Source: Flavobacteriaceae bacterium UJ101
GTDB taxonomy: Bacteria; Bacteroidota; Bacteroidia; Flavobacteriales; UJ101
Direction of reading: 5' to 3'
Length of the DNA: 64,000 bases
Assembly (NCBI GenBank): GCA_001880285.1
Contig: CP016269.1
Location: 1,126,501-1,190,500, forward strand
Shown: piece by piece, positions 26,658 through 32,999 of the stretch
How positions within the stretch are numbered: the stretch's first letter is position 1
How the letters are laid out: every line of letters starts with the position of its first letter
Made by a program: the position numbers and the translations under genes
Notes under the pieces: generated by a model
Told to the model about the DNA's origin: nothing
What the model saw: only the letters and a program-made list of their open reading frames with translations
The model's database searches: none

Positions 26658-26672
26658 AGGTAAAATTTACCT
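26658..26672. promoter_or_regulatory. Palindromic operator-like site ahead of the repressor gene
   Basis: AGGTAAA and TTTACCT form a perfect 7-bp inverted repeat around one base, 14 bases before the repressor-like gene. A near-identical palindrome (AGGTAAAAgTTTTACCT) lies at 27365-27381 before the integrase, which suggests one DNA-binding protein reads both. Confidence 0.55.
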
Positions 26673-26686
26673 ATGTATATAAATTG

Positions 26687-27058
26687 ATGAAAAAAAAATT
26701 CTCCAAAATAAAACTCAATATCTTAAAATATATTGAATATAAAGGATATAGTAAACGTAAAGTATATCTTGACACTGGCATTGCAAACGGCGTCCTAGAT
26801 AAGGAGACAGGGTTATCAGAAAAAAATATAGAACTGTTTATCTCTACTTATTCTGAAGTAAACCCTACTTGGCTTCTAACAGGAGAAGGAAATATGCTCA
26901 ATATCCCTTCTATTCCAGAAGATCTTCTTAGTAAAGAAAAAATGGTTGATCTGGTTAATTTTTTAATCAATAATGAAGATGAATTAATGCAATACCCTAT
27001 CTATAAGAATTATATTGAAAAATCCGTTTACAAATTTATTCACACTGAAAAAAAGTGA
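26687..27058 (+). CDS. Phage-repressor-like helix-turn-helix protein
   Basis: With the ATG at 26687 the protein has 123 residues; a TTG one codon upstream is an unlikely start. KIKLNILKYIEYKGYSKRKVYLDTGI followed by NPTWLLTGEGNML is the layout of small repressor-type HTH proteins of Bacteroidota prophages and integrative elements. The C-terminal half is a short helical region without a peptidase domain. It has a palindrome just upstream that is repeated before the integrase gene, so it probably represses itself and int. It lies outside the 13-bp att repeat, which is unexpected. Confidence 0.75.
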   Translation: MKKKFSKIKLNILKYIEYKGYSKRKVYLDTGIANGVLDKETGLSEKNIELFISTYSEVNPTWLLTGEGNMLNIPSIPEDLLSKEKMVDLVNFLINNEDELMQYPIYKNYIEKSVYKFIHTEKK

Positions 27059-27208
27059 CAATCTTGCTTTAAATCAGACTCATCAATTTAGAGATTATTT
27101 TTATGCTTCTAAATTTATTAATTAGTACTGCTTTAGTATCAGCAACTACATCTAGAATTTTTCTTGAAAGATTTCCTATTTTTGGATAAACTATTTTGAA
27201 TATAAGTT

Positions 27209-27221
27209 GTGCTCACGACTG
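27209..27221. repeat. Left attachment repeat of the tRNA-Leu element
   Basis: GTGCTCACGACTG is an exact 13-bp direct copy of 32915-32927, which is the 3' end of the tRNA-Leu gene (discriminator, acceptor strand and part of the T stem). This is what remains of the original tRNA 3' end after integration. Confidence 0.85.
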
Positions 27222-27364
27222 AAATACAAACAGTTACATATTTTTTTATTCAATTTTATGCAAACCTATACTATTACTTACCTCAATGTAATTAGAACTA
27301 ATATTCAATGTAAAGTAAAACATAGTTAAATCCACTATAATAAAGTTTATATCGGTAAAAATTG

Positions 27365-27381
27365 AGGTAAAAGTTTTACCT
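27365..27381. promoter_or_regulatory. Palindromic operator-like site ahead of the integrase
   Basis: AGGTAAAA and TTTTACCT form a perfect 8-bp inverted repeat around one base, 20 bases before the integrase ATG. It matches the palindrome at 26658-26672. Confidence 0.55.
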
Positions 27382-27401
27382 TAGTATAAAATTACATTAT
27401 T

Positions 27402-28700
27402 ATGACAGTACGATACTTTATTATTAAAACTAGCAAAGCTGAATATGTAAGTATTTATGTTCGTTTCTTAGGACATGATAGATATGATGAACGTACAGTA
27501 ACTGGATTAAAAATAAAAAAAGATCAATGGAGCGTAAAAGATCAAAAAGTTAAACCTAAAAGTATTGTACCTCAACGTGAATTTATAAACAACCATTTAA
27601 TACATCTTAAATCACATTTATATGATGCTTACAACGTAACTTATAATTCTAAAAGCTATATTAAAAAAAATTGGCTTAAAGATGAGGTAAACAAATATTT
27701 TGGTAGAGCTAAAAAAGATGAAACTTATAAAATATACTTTACTGATTGGGTTGGCAAATTCATACAAGATTCACATAAAAGATTAAAAAAAGATGGTAAT
27801 GGCACAATTTCATTATCCACTCAAAAATACTATAAAACAGTGTATAATAAGCTTATTCAATACGAAAAGTATAAAAAAATCAAACTGAGATTTGAAGATA
27901 TTAATTTAAAATTCTATGAAGATATAGTATTTTATTTAAGAGAAGATCAAAAGCTTAATAATAACACTATTGGTGGAACAATTAATAAAATTAAATTATT
28001 CTGCAAACAAATAGAGTTACAAGGCTTACCAATAAACATACAGTATAAAGAATTTAAAGCCCCTAGTAACAAAACATTTGACACCTACTTAAATGAAGAT
28101 GAAATCAATAAAATATTTCATTACGATTTTAGTAAACAACCTAGTTTAGATAATGCACGTGATTTATTTATTATTGGATTATGGACTGGTTTAAGAATTT
28201 CAGATTTTATGCGTTTAAAAGATTTAAATATAAACGAAGAATTTATTGAAATAACAACGCAAAAAAATGATGAACCTGTAATTATACCTATGCATAAACA
28301 AATTAAAAGCATCCTAAAAAAATATAATGATGATTTACCTTATAAAATATCAGATCAGAAATTCAATAAACACATAAAAAGAATTTGTAAAATTGTTGGA
28401 ATAGATCAAAAAATCAAAGGTTCTAAAATGAATTCAATAACCAAACGTAAAGAAGTGGGAATATATCATAAATATGAGCTTATAGCCAGCCACGCATGCC
28501 GTAGGTCTTTTGCTTCTAATTTATACGGTAAATTACCCAATATGGTTATTATGAGTATTACTACACATAAAACAGAAGCTCAATTTTTAAAATATATTAA
28601 GATAACCAAACAAGAACATGCTAATACCTTAAAAGAATTTTGGGCTAAGCAAAAAGAAGAAAATAAATACGAAAGTGTAACTATGAAAATTGTTAAGTAA
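27402..28700 (+). CDS. int: Tyrosine recombinase / integrase
   Basis: The 432-residue protein has an N-terminal arm-binding part, a SAM-like core-binding domain (about residues 110-215) and a C-terminal catalytic domain. The catalytic residues seen are Arg265 in GLWTGLRISD, His364 and Arg367 in HACRRSF, His389 in TTHKTEAQF and the nucleophile Tyr398 in LKYIK. Lys288 may be the beta-strand lysine. It would integrate and excise the element at the tRNA-Leu 3' end, and it lies 180 bases from the left attachment site. A palindrome 20 bases upstream may be the repressor site. Confidence 0.95.
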   Translation: MTVRYFIIKTSKAEYVSIYVRFLGHDRYDERTVTGLKIKKDQWSVKDQKVKPKSIVPQREFINNHLIHLKSHLYDAYNVTYNSKSYIKKNWLKDEVNKYFGRAKKDETYKIYFTDWVGKFIQDSHKRLKKDGNGTISLSTQKYYKTVYNKLIQYEKYKKIKLRFEDINLKFYEDIVFYLREDQKLNNNTIGGTINKIKLFCKQIELQGLPINIQYKEFKAPSNKTFDTYLNEDEINKIFHYDFSKQPSLDNARDLFIIGLWTGLRISDFMRLKDLNINEEFIEITTQKNDEPVIIPMHKQIKSILKKYNDDLPYKISDQKFNKHIKRICKIVGIDQKIKGSKMNSITKRKEVGIYHKYELIASHACRRSFASNLYGKLPNMVIMSITTHKTEAQFLKYIKITKQEHANTLKEFWAKQKEENKYESVTMKIVK

Positions 28701-28715
28701 TTAAAATTAAAAAGC

Positions 28716-29768
28716 ATGAGTCAAGAATGGTATAAAGATTATGAAACAAAAGTTAAAAATTTCTTTTATTTATCAAAAAAATGGAGTGTTACAACTAGTA
28801 CAAAAGAAATACCTTATCCAATCAAAATGTTTGAAAAACTTAACCTTTTACCTTATGATAGTAATAATAAAATTTTAATTCAAGATGAACTTAATGATTT
28901 TAAAACAAAATTATATGACAAATTAACCAGTACTAGTAATAATTCAGAAATAATATTAATGGATTTAGAAAATAGTTTTATACCTTTTATAATTGAATAC
29001 AAAGAATGGTATAGAACTAATGAAAGTTTATTAAAAAAATTCGAACCCTATTCTCCATATAAATTTATGCATGGAGAAATTATTGATTTAGAAAAAGAAT
29101 TACTAAAATATTTAAATAAGTATAATATGGTATTTAATGACTTCTCAGATTTTACAGATCATTATAAACAATATAGTAATATTATTACTATTGATAATAC
29201 AGGGAATGCATTATCTAAATATAAAAATATTAAATCACAATCACAAAACATGGAAACACCTACAGAATACGAAAAGATAAAAGAAAAAGTAGAAAGTGGG
29301 CTTCATCATTTTAAAGAAAAAATTAACGTGTATTTTTCTGAACGTCAATATTGTAATAACACCCAACTTAAATATGACAAAGAGTTTCATAGATTACTAA
29401 ATTTTTACTTTAAATATAAAGAACTTTATAATCAAATTGATACACCGACAAAAATTAATGATGATAAAAAACAATACGAGTGGTGGTTTCAAGTGGGCTT
29501 ATTATTTGCAACTGGTGAGATAAATAAGCTAATGGATGAATATGACCAGAATGCAACTAAGCTTGCAAAAGGTTATTTTCAAAATGAAAATGCAACACGT
29601 CCATGGATTTCATCTACGTATAATAATAATGACAACAATAAAAACCTTTATAATTATCAAAACTTCGATAAAATTAAAAAACTTATGAATCATTGTGAAC
29701 AAGAAGATATTATAACTTGCGAAAAGTTTAAATCACATTGTGATAAAATTAAGTATGATTTAGAATAA
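28716..29768 (+). CDS. Unknown element protein of 350 residues
   Basis: The protein is soluble and acidic-basic mixed, with many Asn, Lys and Tyr residues. It has no signal peptide, no membrane segment and no motif I recognise. It contains helical stretches such as KFMHGEIIDLEKELLKYLNKYN and EYEKIKEKVESGLHHFKEKIN, then a tract WWFQVGLLFATGEINKLMDEYDQNATKLA that may be the conserved core. It follows the integrase by 15 bases and is probably cotranscribed with it. The low-complexity NNNDNNKN tract near the C-terminus is a linker. No function is proposed. Confidence 0.7.
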   Translation: MSQEWYKDYETKVKNFFYLSKKWSVTTSTKEIPYPIKMFEKLNLLPYDSNNKILIQDELNDFKTKLYDKLTSTSNNSEIILMDLENSFIPFIIEYKEWYRTNESLLKKFEPYSPYKFMHGEIIDLEKELLKYLNKYNMVFNDFSDFTDHYKQYSNIITIDNTGNALSKYKNIKSQSQNMETPTEYEKIKEKVESGLHHFKEKINVYFSERQYCNNTQLKYDKEFHRLLNFYFKYKELYNQIDTPTKINDDKKQYEWWFQVGLLFATGEINKLMDEYDQNATKLAKGYFQNENATRPWISSTYNNNDNNKNLYNYQNFDKIKKLMNHCEQEDIITCEKFKSHCDKIKYDLE

Positions 29769-29780
29769 AATAAAAATATC

Positions 29781-29839
29781 CGTACTCAGTACGTACCAGT
29801 ACAAGTATAGTACTATGAAGTAATATTTAATATTGCTTC
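29781..29839. promoter_or_regulatory. Cluster of three palindromes and five GTAC steps before the excisionase-like gene
   Basis: CGTACTCAGTACG (29781-29793) and ATAGTACTAT (29807-29816) are perfect palindromes. GAAGTAATATT and AATATTGCTTC (29817-29827 and 29829-29839) pair with one G-T. GTAC occurs five times in about 33 bases. The cluster ends exactly at the next ATG. It could be the operator or replication origin of the element. Confidence 0.5.
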
Positions 29840-30133
29840 ATGAAATTATTCATTTCAGAAACGACAGCAGAAGAGTTAGTAAGCACGTTTCAAATTAAGG
29901 TAAAAGAGGTAATACAAGAAGAGGTAAATAAATTTAAACCTCAACAAAAGCAAGAATTAAAATTCTACACACGTAAAGAGGTTTGCAAGCTTCTTGGTAT
30001 TTCATTAGTAACGCTTAGTAGTTACATTGATAAAGGCGTTATATCATGTAATAGAATTGGCAAAAATATCCGTTTTACTGATAAACATATTACAGATGCT
30101 TTAATAGATATTAATAACAAAAAAACCGCCTAA
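29840..30133 (+). CDS. Excisionase-like helix-turn-helix protein
   Basis: The 97-residue protein has a C-terminal winged HTH of the MerR/excisionase type: YTRKEVCKLLGISLVTLSSYIDKGVISCNRIGKNIRF. This is the domain-17-type HTH common beside replication and recombination genes in Bacteroidota elements. The N-terminal 45 residues form a helix rich in Glu, Lys and Gln. It may direct excision or control the genes that follow. The palindrome cluster directly upstream is a likely target. Confidence 0.82.
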   Translation: MKLFISETTAEELVSTFQIKVKEVIQEEVNKFKPQQKQELKFYTRKEVCKLLGISLVTLSSYIDKGVISCNRIGKNIRFTDKHITDALIDINNKKTA

Positions 30134-30136
30134 GCT

Positions 30137-30511
30137 ATGAAAAATAAAAATTTTCAAAAAAAAGGCGATCTTAACTTATTCTGTGACAAGAACAAAGTTA
30201 AGGAATTATATCTAAATAGCATTGTAGAGAATACGTTAAAAAAGTTGGACTATGAAACTATTGAAGATTTTAAACGTCAATATACCGAAGAACGAATATT
30301 TGAACTAGCATTAAAGAACAATACTACAACTACAACCGCAGTATGTCATGCTTTTAGTATTGAGCAGAAAAATGCTACACGCTACAAACGAAACTTAGAA
30401 GAAGCTAATCGTCTAATTGTATTGATACCACGTAGCAAAAGGAAACGTTGCCCTATCACTGGTTTCATTGCAAGTTTCCTAACTACTAATACAAACTTAA
30501 TCAACAACTAA
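30137..30511 (+). CDS. Small basic element protein, possibly HTH
   Basis: The 124-residue protein starts three bases after the excisionase-like gene stops, so the two are coupled. The segment IFELALKNNTTTTTAVCHAFSIEQKNATRYKRNLEEA looks like a helix-turn-helix in which TTAVCHAF and NATRYKRNLE are the helices. It resembles phage-type proteins that decide between host genes by pairing DNA-binding to a short tail, but no family is assigned. The C-terminus is RKRCPITGFIASFLTTN. Confidence 0.65.
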   Translation: MKNKNFQKKGDLNLFCDKNKVKELYLNSIVENTLKKLDYETIEDFKRQYTEERIFELALKNNTTTTTAVCHAFSIEQKNATRYKRNLEEANRLIVLIPRSKRKRCPITGFIASFLTTNTNLINN

Positions 30512-30513
30512 AC

Positions 30514-31407
30514 GTGATTGATTTTATCAAAGCACGTATTATTAACACAAATGAGCAAATCCTCTTAACTAATGATTTGCTCAATTTCACTCAAACATCT
30601 AAAATAAATGATACGACAAATAAAAAAGAAGTTATCCGAAAACAGGCTAAATATCGAGCTATTACTATTACTATTTTTAAAAATAATCAAATTATTATTA
30701 GCGGGTCACTTCATAAATATTTTGCTCACATGATGGATATAAAAGCACCAATAGCATCAAATAAAAAAAATGATTTTAATGGCTTTGATTTTAAATATTC
30801 CATGTTGGTTAAGGTACTAGATGATTTAAAAAATAAATTTAAAATACCATTAGAAAACTATGTATTGCAAAATATTGAGTTTGGTGTTAATATAAAGCCT
30901 CCTATTGCTTCAAATTTAATTTTAGATAATCTAATTCTGCATAATGGTATAAGCTTTATAGAGCCAATTAAAAACTACAAGCAAGCCGACCATTTTGAAT
31001 ATAAAATAAAAATCTATGATAAAGCAAAGCAGTATCAATTAAATGAACCATGCATTAGAATAGAAAATAAATATGTTAAAATGAGAAAGGCAAATAAAAT
31101 GGGAATTTATAACCTCAGCCACTTAGGTAATTTAAAAATACTTGATAAATTACAAGTTGATTTATTAGAGCGTTTTAATGAAATTCTAATTTATGATGCT
31201 ACAATTGATAAGAGTAAATTAACACAAAGGCAAAAAATAAAGCTAAAAGATTATTGTAACTCTAATTATTGGCTAAGCTTAAAATCCACAAATAGACATA
31301 GACCAAAACAAAGGTATTTAAGTATTGTTAAAAATCATTCAACTGATATTAAAGAAACACTCTTTGAAATAATTGAAGATAAAACGCATTATTTAATTTC
31401 TGCATAA
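30514..31407 (+). CDS. Probable replication initiator of the element (phage gene II/X-like)
   Basis: The 297-residue protein starts at GTG three bases after the previous stop. The stretch KIKIYDKAKQY followed about ten residues on by PCIRIENKYVKM and later YNLSHLGNL recalls the KxYDKxxEx...LRIExR pattern of rolling-circle initiators of filamentous phages and related elements (phage II/X or RepT-like families). No clear HUH motif is visible, so a nicking activity is not shown. It would start replication of the excised circle. This is a resemblance in motif order, not a search result. Confidence 0.5.
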   Translation: MIDFIKARIINTNEQILLTNDLLNFTQTSKINDTTNKKEVIRKQAKYRAITITIFKNNQIIISGSLHKYFAHMMDIKAPIASNKKNDFNGFDFKYSMLVKVLDDLKNKFKIPLENYVLQNIEFGVNIKPPIASNLILDNLILHNGISFIEPIKNYKQADHFEYKIKIYDKAKQYQLNEPCIRIENKYVKMRKANKMGIYNLSHLGNLKILDKLQVDLLERFNEILIYDATIDKSKLTQRQKIKLKDYCNSNYWLSLKSTNRHRPKQRYLSIVKNHSTDIKETLFEIIEDKTHYLISA

Positions 31408-31466
31408 AGATACACACCTAGTAATATAAAGTGTATTTTTATGCTACTAAATATGAAATACAATAA

Positions 31467-32180
31467 ATGGAAAAGACAAAGGATTTTAGTGACTTATTCG
31501 AGTCAACCAATAATGAAAATAATAAGATAAATTTAAAAAGGCTAATCACTCATGAATTAGGTCATTATGTAACAAATTACTTGATTCATAAAAATATTGA
31601 TGATGACCAATTCAAACCTACCGAAATATTTATTAATCCAAGTACAGATGGTGGAGGTGTTAAATGTGGAGACTTACCTTATGGTAAACTTAATAATAAT
31701 CAAAAATATTATAATCTAATTTCTACTATGGCTGGAATAATTTTTGAATCTGTAATATTAGATAATGATCAAATTTTAGAGTATTTAGATATTAATAAAA
31801 TTCAATATAATATAACCAACAATAGTAATGATTTTTCACGATATTATAGACCTTTAGCAATTAGTGATATAAGTATTATTAAGGTGTATTCTAATAATCA
31901 TGATTTTTATGGCAAGGAATTAATATTTAATTATGTCAAATTACTAGATGAAGATTTTAAAAAATTAATTTCTAAAATTGCATCTGAATATACTAATGAG
32001 ATTTTGAATAATAATGATAATGAATTATTATTCAAAACAGGAAATGAGTCAATAACAAAATATAATTTTAATTTAGATATTTTAAATAAAAAAATATTTG
32101 AAAATGATTCTATTAATACGTTTAGAATAAATTTCAATCAATTTATTAATGATAATTTAAATAACTTCGTTAACAATTAA
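31467..32180 (+). CDS. Stand-alone zinc peptidase-like protein resembling the FtsH M41 domain
   Basis: The 237-residue protein has HELGH at residues 29-33 (His29, Glu30, His33), then DGGGVKCG at 61-68, TMAGIIFES at 88-95 and NSNDFSRYY at 119-127. In FtsH-type (M41) proteases HEAGH is followed by a GG(R)xAE helix and by SND, whose Asp is the third zinc ligand, in this order. No AAA ATPase part is present and there is no signal peptide. It may be a cytoplasmic toxin, anti-defence or defence peptidase, or a zinc-binding scaffold. It is the element's main cargo candidate. Confidence 0.6.
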   Translation: MEKTKDFSDLFESTNNENNKINLKRLITHELGHYVTNYLIHKNIDDDQFKPTEIFINPSTDGGGVKCGDLPYGKLNNNQKYYNLISTMAGIIFESVILDNDQILEYLDINKIQYNITNNSNDFSRYYRPLAISDISIIKVYSNNHDFYGKELIFNYVKLLDEDFKKLISKIASEYTNEILNNNDNELLFKTGNESITKYNFNLDILNKKIFENDSINTFRINFNQFINDNLNNFVNN

Positions 32181-32200
32181 GGTTATTAATTCTAATTTAA

Positions 32201-32824
32201 AGTAATAACATCGGACGTATAGGAACATATCCAACTACTATAGAACAATATAAAAGAATCAGTATCTCATATTTTAAAAAAAATGGTATACTTGATAAGA
32301 ATGTTTATAATGCAACAGGAACTATACAGTATACAAGAAATAATGAGCCATCTGGTTCTGTAGGATATGAATTTAACAGAACAAAGAAAGGTTTATGTAC
32401 AATACGGTTTTATTATACTATATCAAATAGGTACTTAGATGAAAAAAGAGATATAAGCTTTACAGTACAGTTAATTAAATTAAAATCTAATCTTAACAAC
32501 TCATACCGCTATTACTTTAAATGCCCTAAAACAGGTCTTAAATGCATTTATTTATACGAATCAAACTCGCATGAATATTTCCTCCATCGAAGCTGTGCTA
32601 ATGCTTATTACGAAAGTCAAATAAGAAGTAAAAACTATAGAAGATTAGATAAATTATATTCTAACATATTTAGATTTGAAAATAATGAGTTTGGTAATAG
32701 ATATGAAAAGTACAGAAAAAAATATTATAAGGGTAAATTAACTAAGTGGTATAAGAAGTATTTAGATGAAGAAAATAAATATAATTCATTTATTATAGCT
32801 GGTGGACTTAAACAAATAATATAG
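32201..32824 (+). CDS. 207-codon open frame without any ATG, GTG or TTG codon
   Basis: The frame is open from a TAA at 32198 to the TAG at 32822 and encodes SNNIGRIGTYPTTIEQYKRI onward, with CPKTGLKC (a zinc-knuckle-like pair), SHEYFLHRSC and a basic C-terminus. I read every codon: none is a standard start and the protein has no methionine. The N-terminus GRIGTYPTTIEQYK resembles a short protein family I recall from Bacteroidota mobile elements, where it begins with Met close to this point. So either the start codon was lost (TAA now sits where ATG would be) or a rare start such as ATC or ATA is used. Confidence 0.6.
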   Translation, partial: SNNIGRIGTYPTTIEQYKRISISYFKKNGILDKNVYNATGTIQYTRNNEPSGSVGYEFNRTKKGLCTIRFYYTISNRYLDEKRDISFTVQLIKLKSNLNNSYRYYFKCPKTGLKCIYLYESNSHEYFLHRSCANAYYESQIRSKNYRRLDKLYSNIFRFENNEFGNRYEKYRKKYYKGKLTKWYKKYLDEENKYNSFIIAGGLKQII

Positions 32825-32914
32825 ATTTAATTTATTACAATGTAAAAAAGTCGGTAAAAAATCAATTGAATATCATTTAAATAATTGAAAAACAATACAT
32901 TAATAACAATATGA

Positions 32915-32927
32915 GTGCTCACGACTG
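32915..32927. repeat. Right attachment repeat within tRNA-Leu
   Basis: GTGCTCACGACTG is the second copy of the 13-bp att repeat. It covers the discriminator base, the 3' acceptor strand and the start of the T stem of the tRNA gene on the minus strand. Confidence 0.85.
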
Positions 32928-32999
32928 GATTCGAACCAGCACACGCATAAGCGCACCACCCCCTCAAGATGGCGTGTCTACCAATTCCACCACGTGAGC
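32916..32999 (-). tRNA. tRNA-Leu (anticodon GAG)
   Basis: The 84-base minus-strand sequence folds as a class II tRNA. The acceptor arms are GCTCACG and CGTGAGC with discriminator A, the D arm has GGTAGACAC, the anticodon stem CCATC/GGTGG encloses TTGAGGG with GAG at 32963-32965, a variable arm follows, and the T arm is TGCTGGTTCGAATCCAGT. The CCA is not encoded. A TATATTTG promoter element lies 14 bases upstream. Its 3' end is the integration target of the element. Confidence 0.95.

Follow-up and report, generated by a model that had tools for sequence, protein, structure and literature searches.

The attL site of the E. coli prophage KplE1 overlaps the promoter of its integrase gene intS, and intS is repressed by Int and the excisionase; as far as the available text goes, this is an experimental precedent, and its authors report the same overlap between the int promoter and attL for 61.5 % of tRNA-associated integrase genes (PMC2951348). 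An arm-binding domain has been described in Bacteroidota integrases of the CTnDOT/NBU1 subgroup; according to the available passages it was at first missed by Pfam (PMC8138268). The 10K genomic island of Riemerella anatipestifer lies in a tRNA gene, has attP beside int and encodes an NBU1-like integrase; the portion of its description available to us contains no mention of arm sites (PMC6764341). The fourth point of comparison is provided by the repressors of transposable Bacteroidota phages, such as the Flavobacterium phage fF4 and Porphyromonas phages, which carry an N-terminal helix-turn-helix (HTH) domain.

The DNA analysed here, referred to as the window, is a stretch of 64,000 nucleotides of the Flavobacteriaceae bacterium UJ101, in which one short palindrome precedes an HTH gene and another precedes an integrase gene, int (Table 1). 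In the preliminary description the two were combined into a lysogeny-type switch in which the HTH protein shuts off both itself and the integrase. The palindromes are indeed present where they had been placed, with 14 nt separating palindrome 1 from the HTH ATG (26687) and 20 nt separating palindrome 2 from the int ATG (27402); an in-frame TTG is found at 26684, just before the HTH ATG. The centre-symmetric design attributed to both is shared only in part. The 7-bp half-site AGGTAAA is common to the two, but the spacer between the half-sites is 1 bp in palindrome 1 and 3 bp in palindrome 2 (15 vs 17 bp in total), and the outward extension to TAG...CTA is seen only at palindrome 1, which measures 17 bp when the outer T/A is counted.

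Table 1 Features of the int element and its left neighbourhood (positions within the window)
Feature	Position	Strand	Remarks
Palindrome 1, AGGTAAA-A-TTTACCT (AGGTAAAATTTACCT)	26658..26672	none	Probable auto-operator of the HTH gene
Small standalone HTH protein, 123 aa	26687..27058	+	Outside the int element; similar to repressors of transposable Bacteroidota phages in its N-terminal 70 aa
attL core, repeating 13 bp of the tRNA-Leu 3' end	27209..27221	none	Left element boundary, 193 nt before int
Two direct arm-type units, CGGTAAAA / AGGTAAAA	27353..27372	none	Period 12; relatives share the layout but not the sequences
Palindrome 2 (AGGTAAAAGTTTTACCT), AGGTAAAA-G-TTTTACCT	27365..27381	none	Putative promoter-proximal arm-type unit and its inverted copy, upstream of int
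Tyrosine recombinase (integrase, Int), 432 aa	27402..28700	+	Pfam Phage_integrase, E 2.2e-11
Excisionase-like small HTH_17 protein, 97 aa	29840..30133	+	Pfam HTH_17, 6.3e-8
Far arm-type unit, CGGTAAAA	32852..32859	none	63 nt before the attR core
attR core within the tRNA-Leu 3' end	32915..32927	none	Second core copy
tRNA-Leu (gag)	32915..32999	-	Integration target; ARAGORN

The attachment core GTGCTCACGACTG occurs twice in the whole genome, at 27209 and, within the tRNA-Leu gene, at 32915. These two copies define a mobile element of 5.7 kb extending from 27209 to 32927. The attL core falls to the right of the HTH gene and to the left of int, which places the HTH gene, and palindrome 1 with it, outside the element; the proposal that the HTH protein and the integrase form one lysogeny-type unit does not agree with this boundary. 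The same organization was observed in related elements. The distance from the core to int was 193-217 nt in 7/7 elements examined; in L066 the core measures 17 bp and is found about 193 nt ahead of int and once more at a tRNA-Met gene, and the core of L070 measures 16 bp, its distances being similar. The set of seven was picked for direct far copies of the repeat unit described below, with the far site of L066 taken from a separate core comparison, and four loci with far matches (L067, L069, L232 and L058) were left out of it. A tRNA gene was recognized by ARAGORN at attR in five of the seven elements (Leu, Met, Cys, Leu, Cys), and attR of the other two resembles, by eye, what we take to be the 3' end of a tmRNA. 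In this layout, an island in a tRNA gene with the attachment site beside int, the element can be likened to the Riemerella island (PMC6764341).

Palindrome 2 belongs to a repeat array placed about 20-50 nt ahead of the int ATG. The unit of the window is (C/A)GGTAAAA, and the array reads CGGTAAAA-ATTG-AGGTAAAA-G followed by the inverted TTTTACCT, its units 2 and 3 together forming palindrome 2; given this unit, palindrome 2 is explained as a pair of arm repeats with an inverted copy at the predicted int promoter. Relatives of int are likewise preceded by tandem direct repeats, mostly with a period of 11-12, the sequence of which varies from element to element (TCGGCAAATATTCGGCAAA, GTGGGGATTATGTGGGGAT and GGTTGGAATTTGGTTGGAA are examples). 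Such a repeat was detected at a shuffle P <= 0.05 in 22 of the 29 regions upstream of int, 7 of 29 failing. Arm-type units flank the core on both sides in all seven elements examined, and in each of them the element's own unit is found again 61-76 nt ahead of the attR core. Units that are repeated on both sides of the core and go with the element, not with the host, have the appearance of arm-type integrase sites, and such arm repeats, common to the relatives in layout but not in sequence, would account for palindrome 2.

Few int relatives have the inverted third copy, which was seen next to the unit in L234 and L238. In L234 the element's own, different unit gives a perfect palindrome (GTTGGAATT/AATTCCAAC) with 9-bp arms, a length reached in 0/200 shuffles, and no HTH homologue was found in the wide int locus searched there; L238 has a partial palindrome beside its own unit. 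L241 (L042 in the repeat survey) is built differently, the 100 nt upstream of int containing four tandem units GTCGGACATAT instead of two or three. The exact arm pair GGTAAAAATTGAGGTAAAA was also encountered in genome G349, not near an int relative, and was dismissed as a chance occurrence. The exact-arm-pair pattern alone is uninformative, because the reversed-pattern control gave counts of the same order; among the 152 loci obtained by searches with such patterns no relatives were found.

As in KplE1, the predicted int promoter region of this tRNA-integrated element would overlap arm-type sites of attL, and repression of int by Int and the excisionase is predicted; unlike KplE1, which has a different integrase, the window offers sequence evidence alone, and an inverted arm copy forms a palindrome in it (compared with the available text of PMC2951348). 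The array occupies the place at which the int promoter has to be expected, so Int, perhaps with the excisionase, would repress int. Palindrome 2 would then probably serve Int self-repression, by analogy with intS, and int would be self-limited with no help from the HTH protein.

The Int residues R265, K288, H364, R367, H389 and Y398, to which we assign the catalytic roles of an R-K-H-R-H-Y set, are invariant among 7 aligned integrases, and the catalytic set is full. Pfam recognized the integrase domain in 7/7 and a SAM-like domain in 5/7 of these proteins, and gave no match to an arm-binding domain in any of the seven. In the structure model the N-terminus of Int consists of three strands followed by a helix, the block means of pLDDT for residues 1-100 being 66-87; an arm-binding domain would be expected to look like this. 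A fold search of the PDB with the Int model, whose catalytic half is poor, returned no match at E 0.001. In its extended N-terminal part, the SAM-like domain of its relatives, the RKHRH-type residues and the putative arm sites near the ends the protein resembles IntCTnDOT and other NBU1-type integrases, and the window integrase differs from them in its own target and unit sequence (compared with the available passages of PMC8138268). The N-terminal domain of Int would most likely grip the arm units at both ends of the element and so assemble the recombination complex. One int relative, in L068 (9043-11308), has a coding sequence interrupted by an insertion of about 1 kb.

The excisionase-like protein encoded further downstream (TIGR01764 excise, 3.9e-6, just under the cut-off of the model) could itself be the main ligand of palindrome 2, bending the arm region and repressing int. 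Such a gene is present in the element, with relatives in L062, L063, L064 and L067, and the available text on KplE1 names TorI as a repressor of intS (PMC2951348). Against this, the unit is found again near attR and agrees with the direct repeats, both being features expected of integrase arm sites, and we regard a primary role of the excisionase at palindrome 2 as highly improbable.

Three other reading frames of the element were noted. The 297-aa protein encoded at 30514-31407 has conserved counterparts in several related elements; it had been guessed by eye to be a replication protein, and family searches gave no convincing family. The frame at 31467-32180 specifies a 237-aa protein with a HELGH motif, presumably metalloprotease-like as judged by eye, for which the SprT-like match was only weak. 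Between the last listed gene and attR, a long open frame (32198-32824), which corresponds to about 200 aa and includes a CPKTGLKC motif, lacks an ATG, GTG or TTG start, and either uses another start codon or is a truncated gene.

The characterization of the gene in front of the element as repressor-like was upheld. The HTH protein is 53 % identical to the putative repressor of phage fF4 (tblastn, E 2e-13, the best of the 19 phage records with E <= 0.1), the best seven phage matches showing 41-53 % identity over about 65-70 residues; an annotated transposase adjoins the repressors of fF4 and of two Porphyromonas phages. The similarity concerns the N-terminal HTH domain. Unlike the phage repressors, the window protein has no C-terminal part (123 aa vs 224-261 aa in five phage relatives), and its gene is not accompanied by a divergent early operon. 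Short standalone relatives exist besides the full-length phage repressors. A Pfam search with the HTH protein gave no family at the cut-off, a search of viral contigs gave no match and a search of plasmids gave one weak relative; the structure model (mean pLDDT 39) was left out of the analysis. Two further standalone HTH paralogues are encoded in the same genome (L028 1501-1800 and L031 1501-1821), preceded by palindrome-like sequences that differ; the one in L028 is divergent to a long gene that we read as AddB-like.

The GC content of the HTH region (0.254) is close to that of the element (0.247) and below that of the neighbouring aldolase gene (0.329), so the HTH region may itself be of mobile origin. 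This low GC, the position directly at the attachment site and the many phage repressors among the HTH relatives would suit a relic of an earlier element inserted in the same tRNA-Leu gene, in which case the half-site match would reflect the common ancestry of two element ends and not present regulation. Such a history is very unlikely and is opposed by two observations: a third copy of the attachment core, that is a second attL, was not found to the left of the HTH gene (the best candidate had 10/20 matches), and the position before 27209 at which a right end should carry its unit has no GGTAAAA.

The upstream regions of 28 HTH relatives, the set that remained once duplicates and two near-duplicate loci, L023 and L026, had been removed, yielded a palindromic motif with a log-likelihood of 45.3 at width 16, in comparison to 24.7-26.9 in five shuffles. 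When the window was scanned with the operator model derived from these 28 relatives, the window not being included, palindrome 1 came 9th among 63,981 places with the width set to 20 and 182nd among 63,985 with a width of 16. For the best places near palindrome 2 the ranks were 727th and 598th, respectively, and these places were not centred on it. At widths 14, 15, 17, 18 and 19 other motifs came out ahead and there was no clean choice of the palindrome, so the support that the operator model lends to palindrome 1 is moderate. A literature search on repressor operators of Flavobacterium and Bacteroidetes phages found nothing. Judging from the operator model and the position 14 nt before the gene, palindrome 1 is most likely the auto-operator of the HTH gene, and the self-regulation part of the initial proposal appears sound, the site resembling the family motif.

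The other part of that proposal, a pairing of the palindromes with both genes that should recur in relatives, found no counterpart elsewhere. In 24 wide int loci no convincing HTH homologue was detected near the int relatives, the only match being one of 20 residues (E = 0.20) in L232, which was also the single match obtained when viral contigs were searched with the integrase. At least one copy of AGGTAAAN1-3TTTACCT is present in 83/395 genomes of the order. The occurrence of the palindrome in other genomes was rejected as a sign of conservation after 31 loci (L245-L275) had been examined, with neither an HTH nor an int relative nearby. The two copies located 1.2 kb apart in G108 are inside the coding sequences of two paralogous sigma-factor-like genes and were set aside as background. 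Viral contigs contain at least 120 stretches with AGGTAAAATTTACCT and 25 with AGGTAAAANTTTTACCT, and among the matches listed for the 145 viral palindrome loci there were no relatives of the window proteins, the HTH protein and integrase included. The search for the palindrome in other elements with this regulator, suggested in the preliminary description, thus gave no HTH or int relative, and palindromes 1 and 2 probably do not constitute one shared switch.

The half-site common to the two palindromes has to be considered separately. A single palindrome is unremarkable here, as the window contains 42 palindromes with 7-bp arms and a spacer of 1-3, with no clear excess over the mean of 35.4 in 60 shuffles. 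Pairs with a common half-site appeared about once (1.03) per shuffled window, but none of 400 shuffles gave a same-half-site pair with at least 2 G/C in the half-site, and the sharing of AGGTAAA is therefore beyond chance. In the whole genome of 3,074,209 bases the pattern AGGTAAAN1-3TTTACCT is found at two places only, which are palindromes 1 and 2, and the sequences downstream of them resemble each other (CCTATGTATATAAATT vs CCTTAGTATAAAATT). The identity of the 7-bp AGGTAAA is the one fact left unexplained by the reading with two separate sites, and a coincidence if the sites are unrelated.

This exact match, restricted in the genome to these two sites and not reproduced by the 400 shuffles, together with the similar flanks and an HTH region as A+T-rich as the element, would be expected if the HTH protein acted from beyond the element boundary and repressed int as well as its own gene, its gene being either a resident silencer or an immunity gene left behind at the attachment site. 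That explanation is unlikely in view of the position of the HTH gene beyond the element boundary, the 2-bp difference in half-site spacing, the arm repeats that explain palindrome 2, the operator model of the HTH family that passes over palindrome 2, the 24 int loci lacking a convincing HTH homologue and the palindrome searches that led to no HTH or int relative in 31 loci or, among the matches listed, in 145 viral loci. A version in which the resident regulator silences int of a landing element, the inverted unit of the array doubling as its operator so that integration beside it turns int off, seems to us distinctly doubtful.

The reading that we favour, with a probability of roughly two in three, is that palindrome 1 is the auto-operator of a resident HTH regulator, and palindrome 2 belongs to the int-proximal arm array of the 5.7-kb tRNA-Leu element and probably serves Int self-repression. 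The standalone regulator, of the Bacteroidota phage-repressor type, would sit in the chromosome just outside the element and regulate itself independently through palindrome 1. At palindrome 2 two direct (C/A)GGTAAAA units and an inverted third copy would be read by Int together with the fourth unit close to attR.

A true pair of palindromes can mimic a phage-like switch when the boundaries of the element are not drawn first. Element-specific arm repeats at fixed distances from the core and int form a compact signature of small tRNA-integrating elements of Bacteroidota, which makes the element ends, the specificity of the integrase and the probable self-regulation of int directly testable. If the half-site match proves functional, it would connect a resident regulator with an incoming element in an unusual way.
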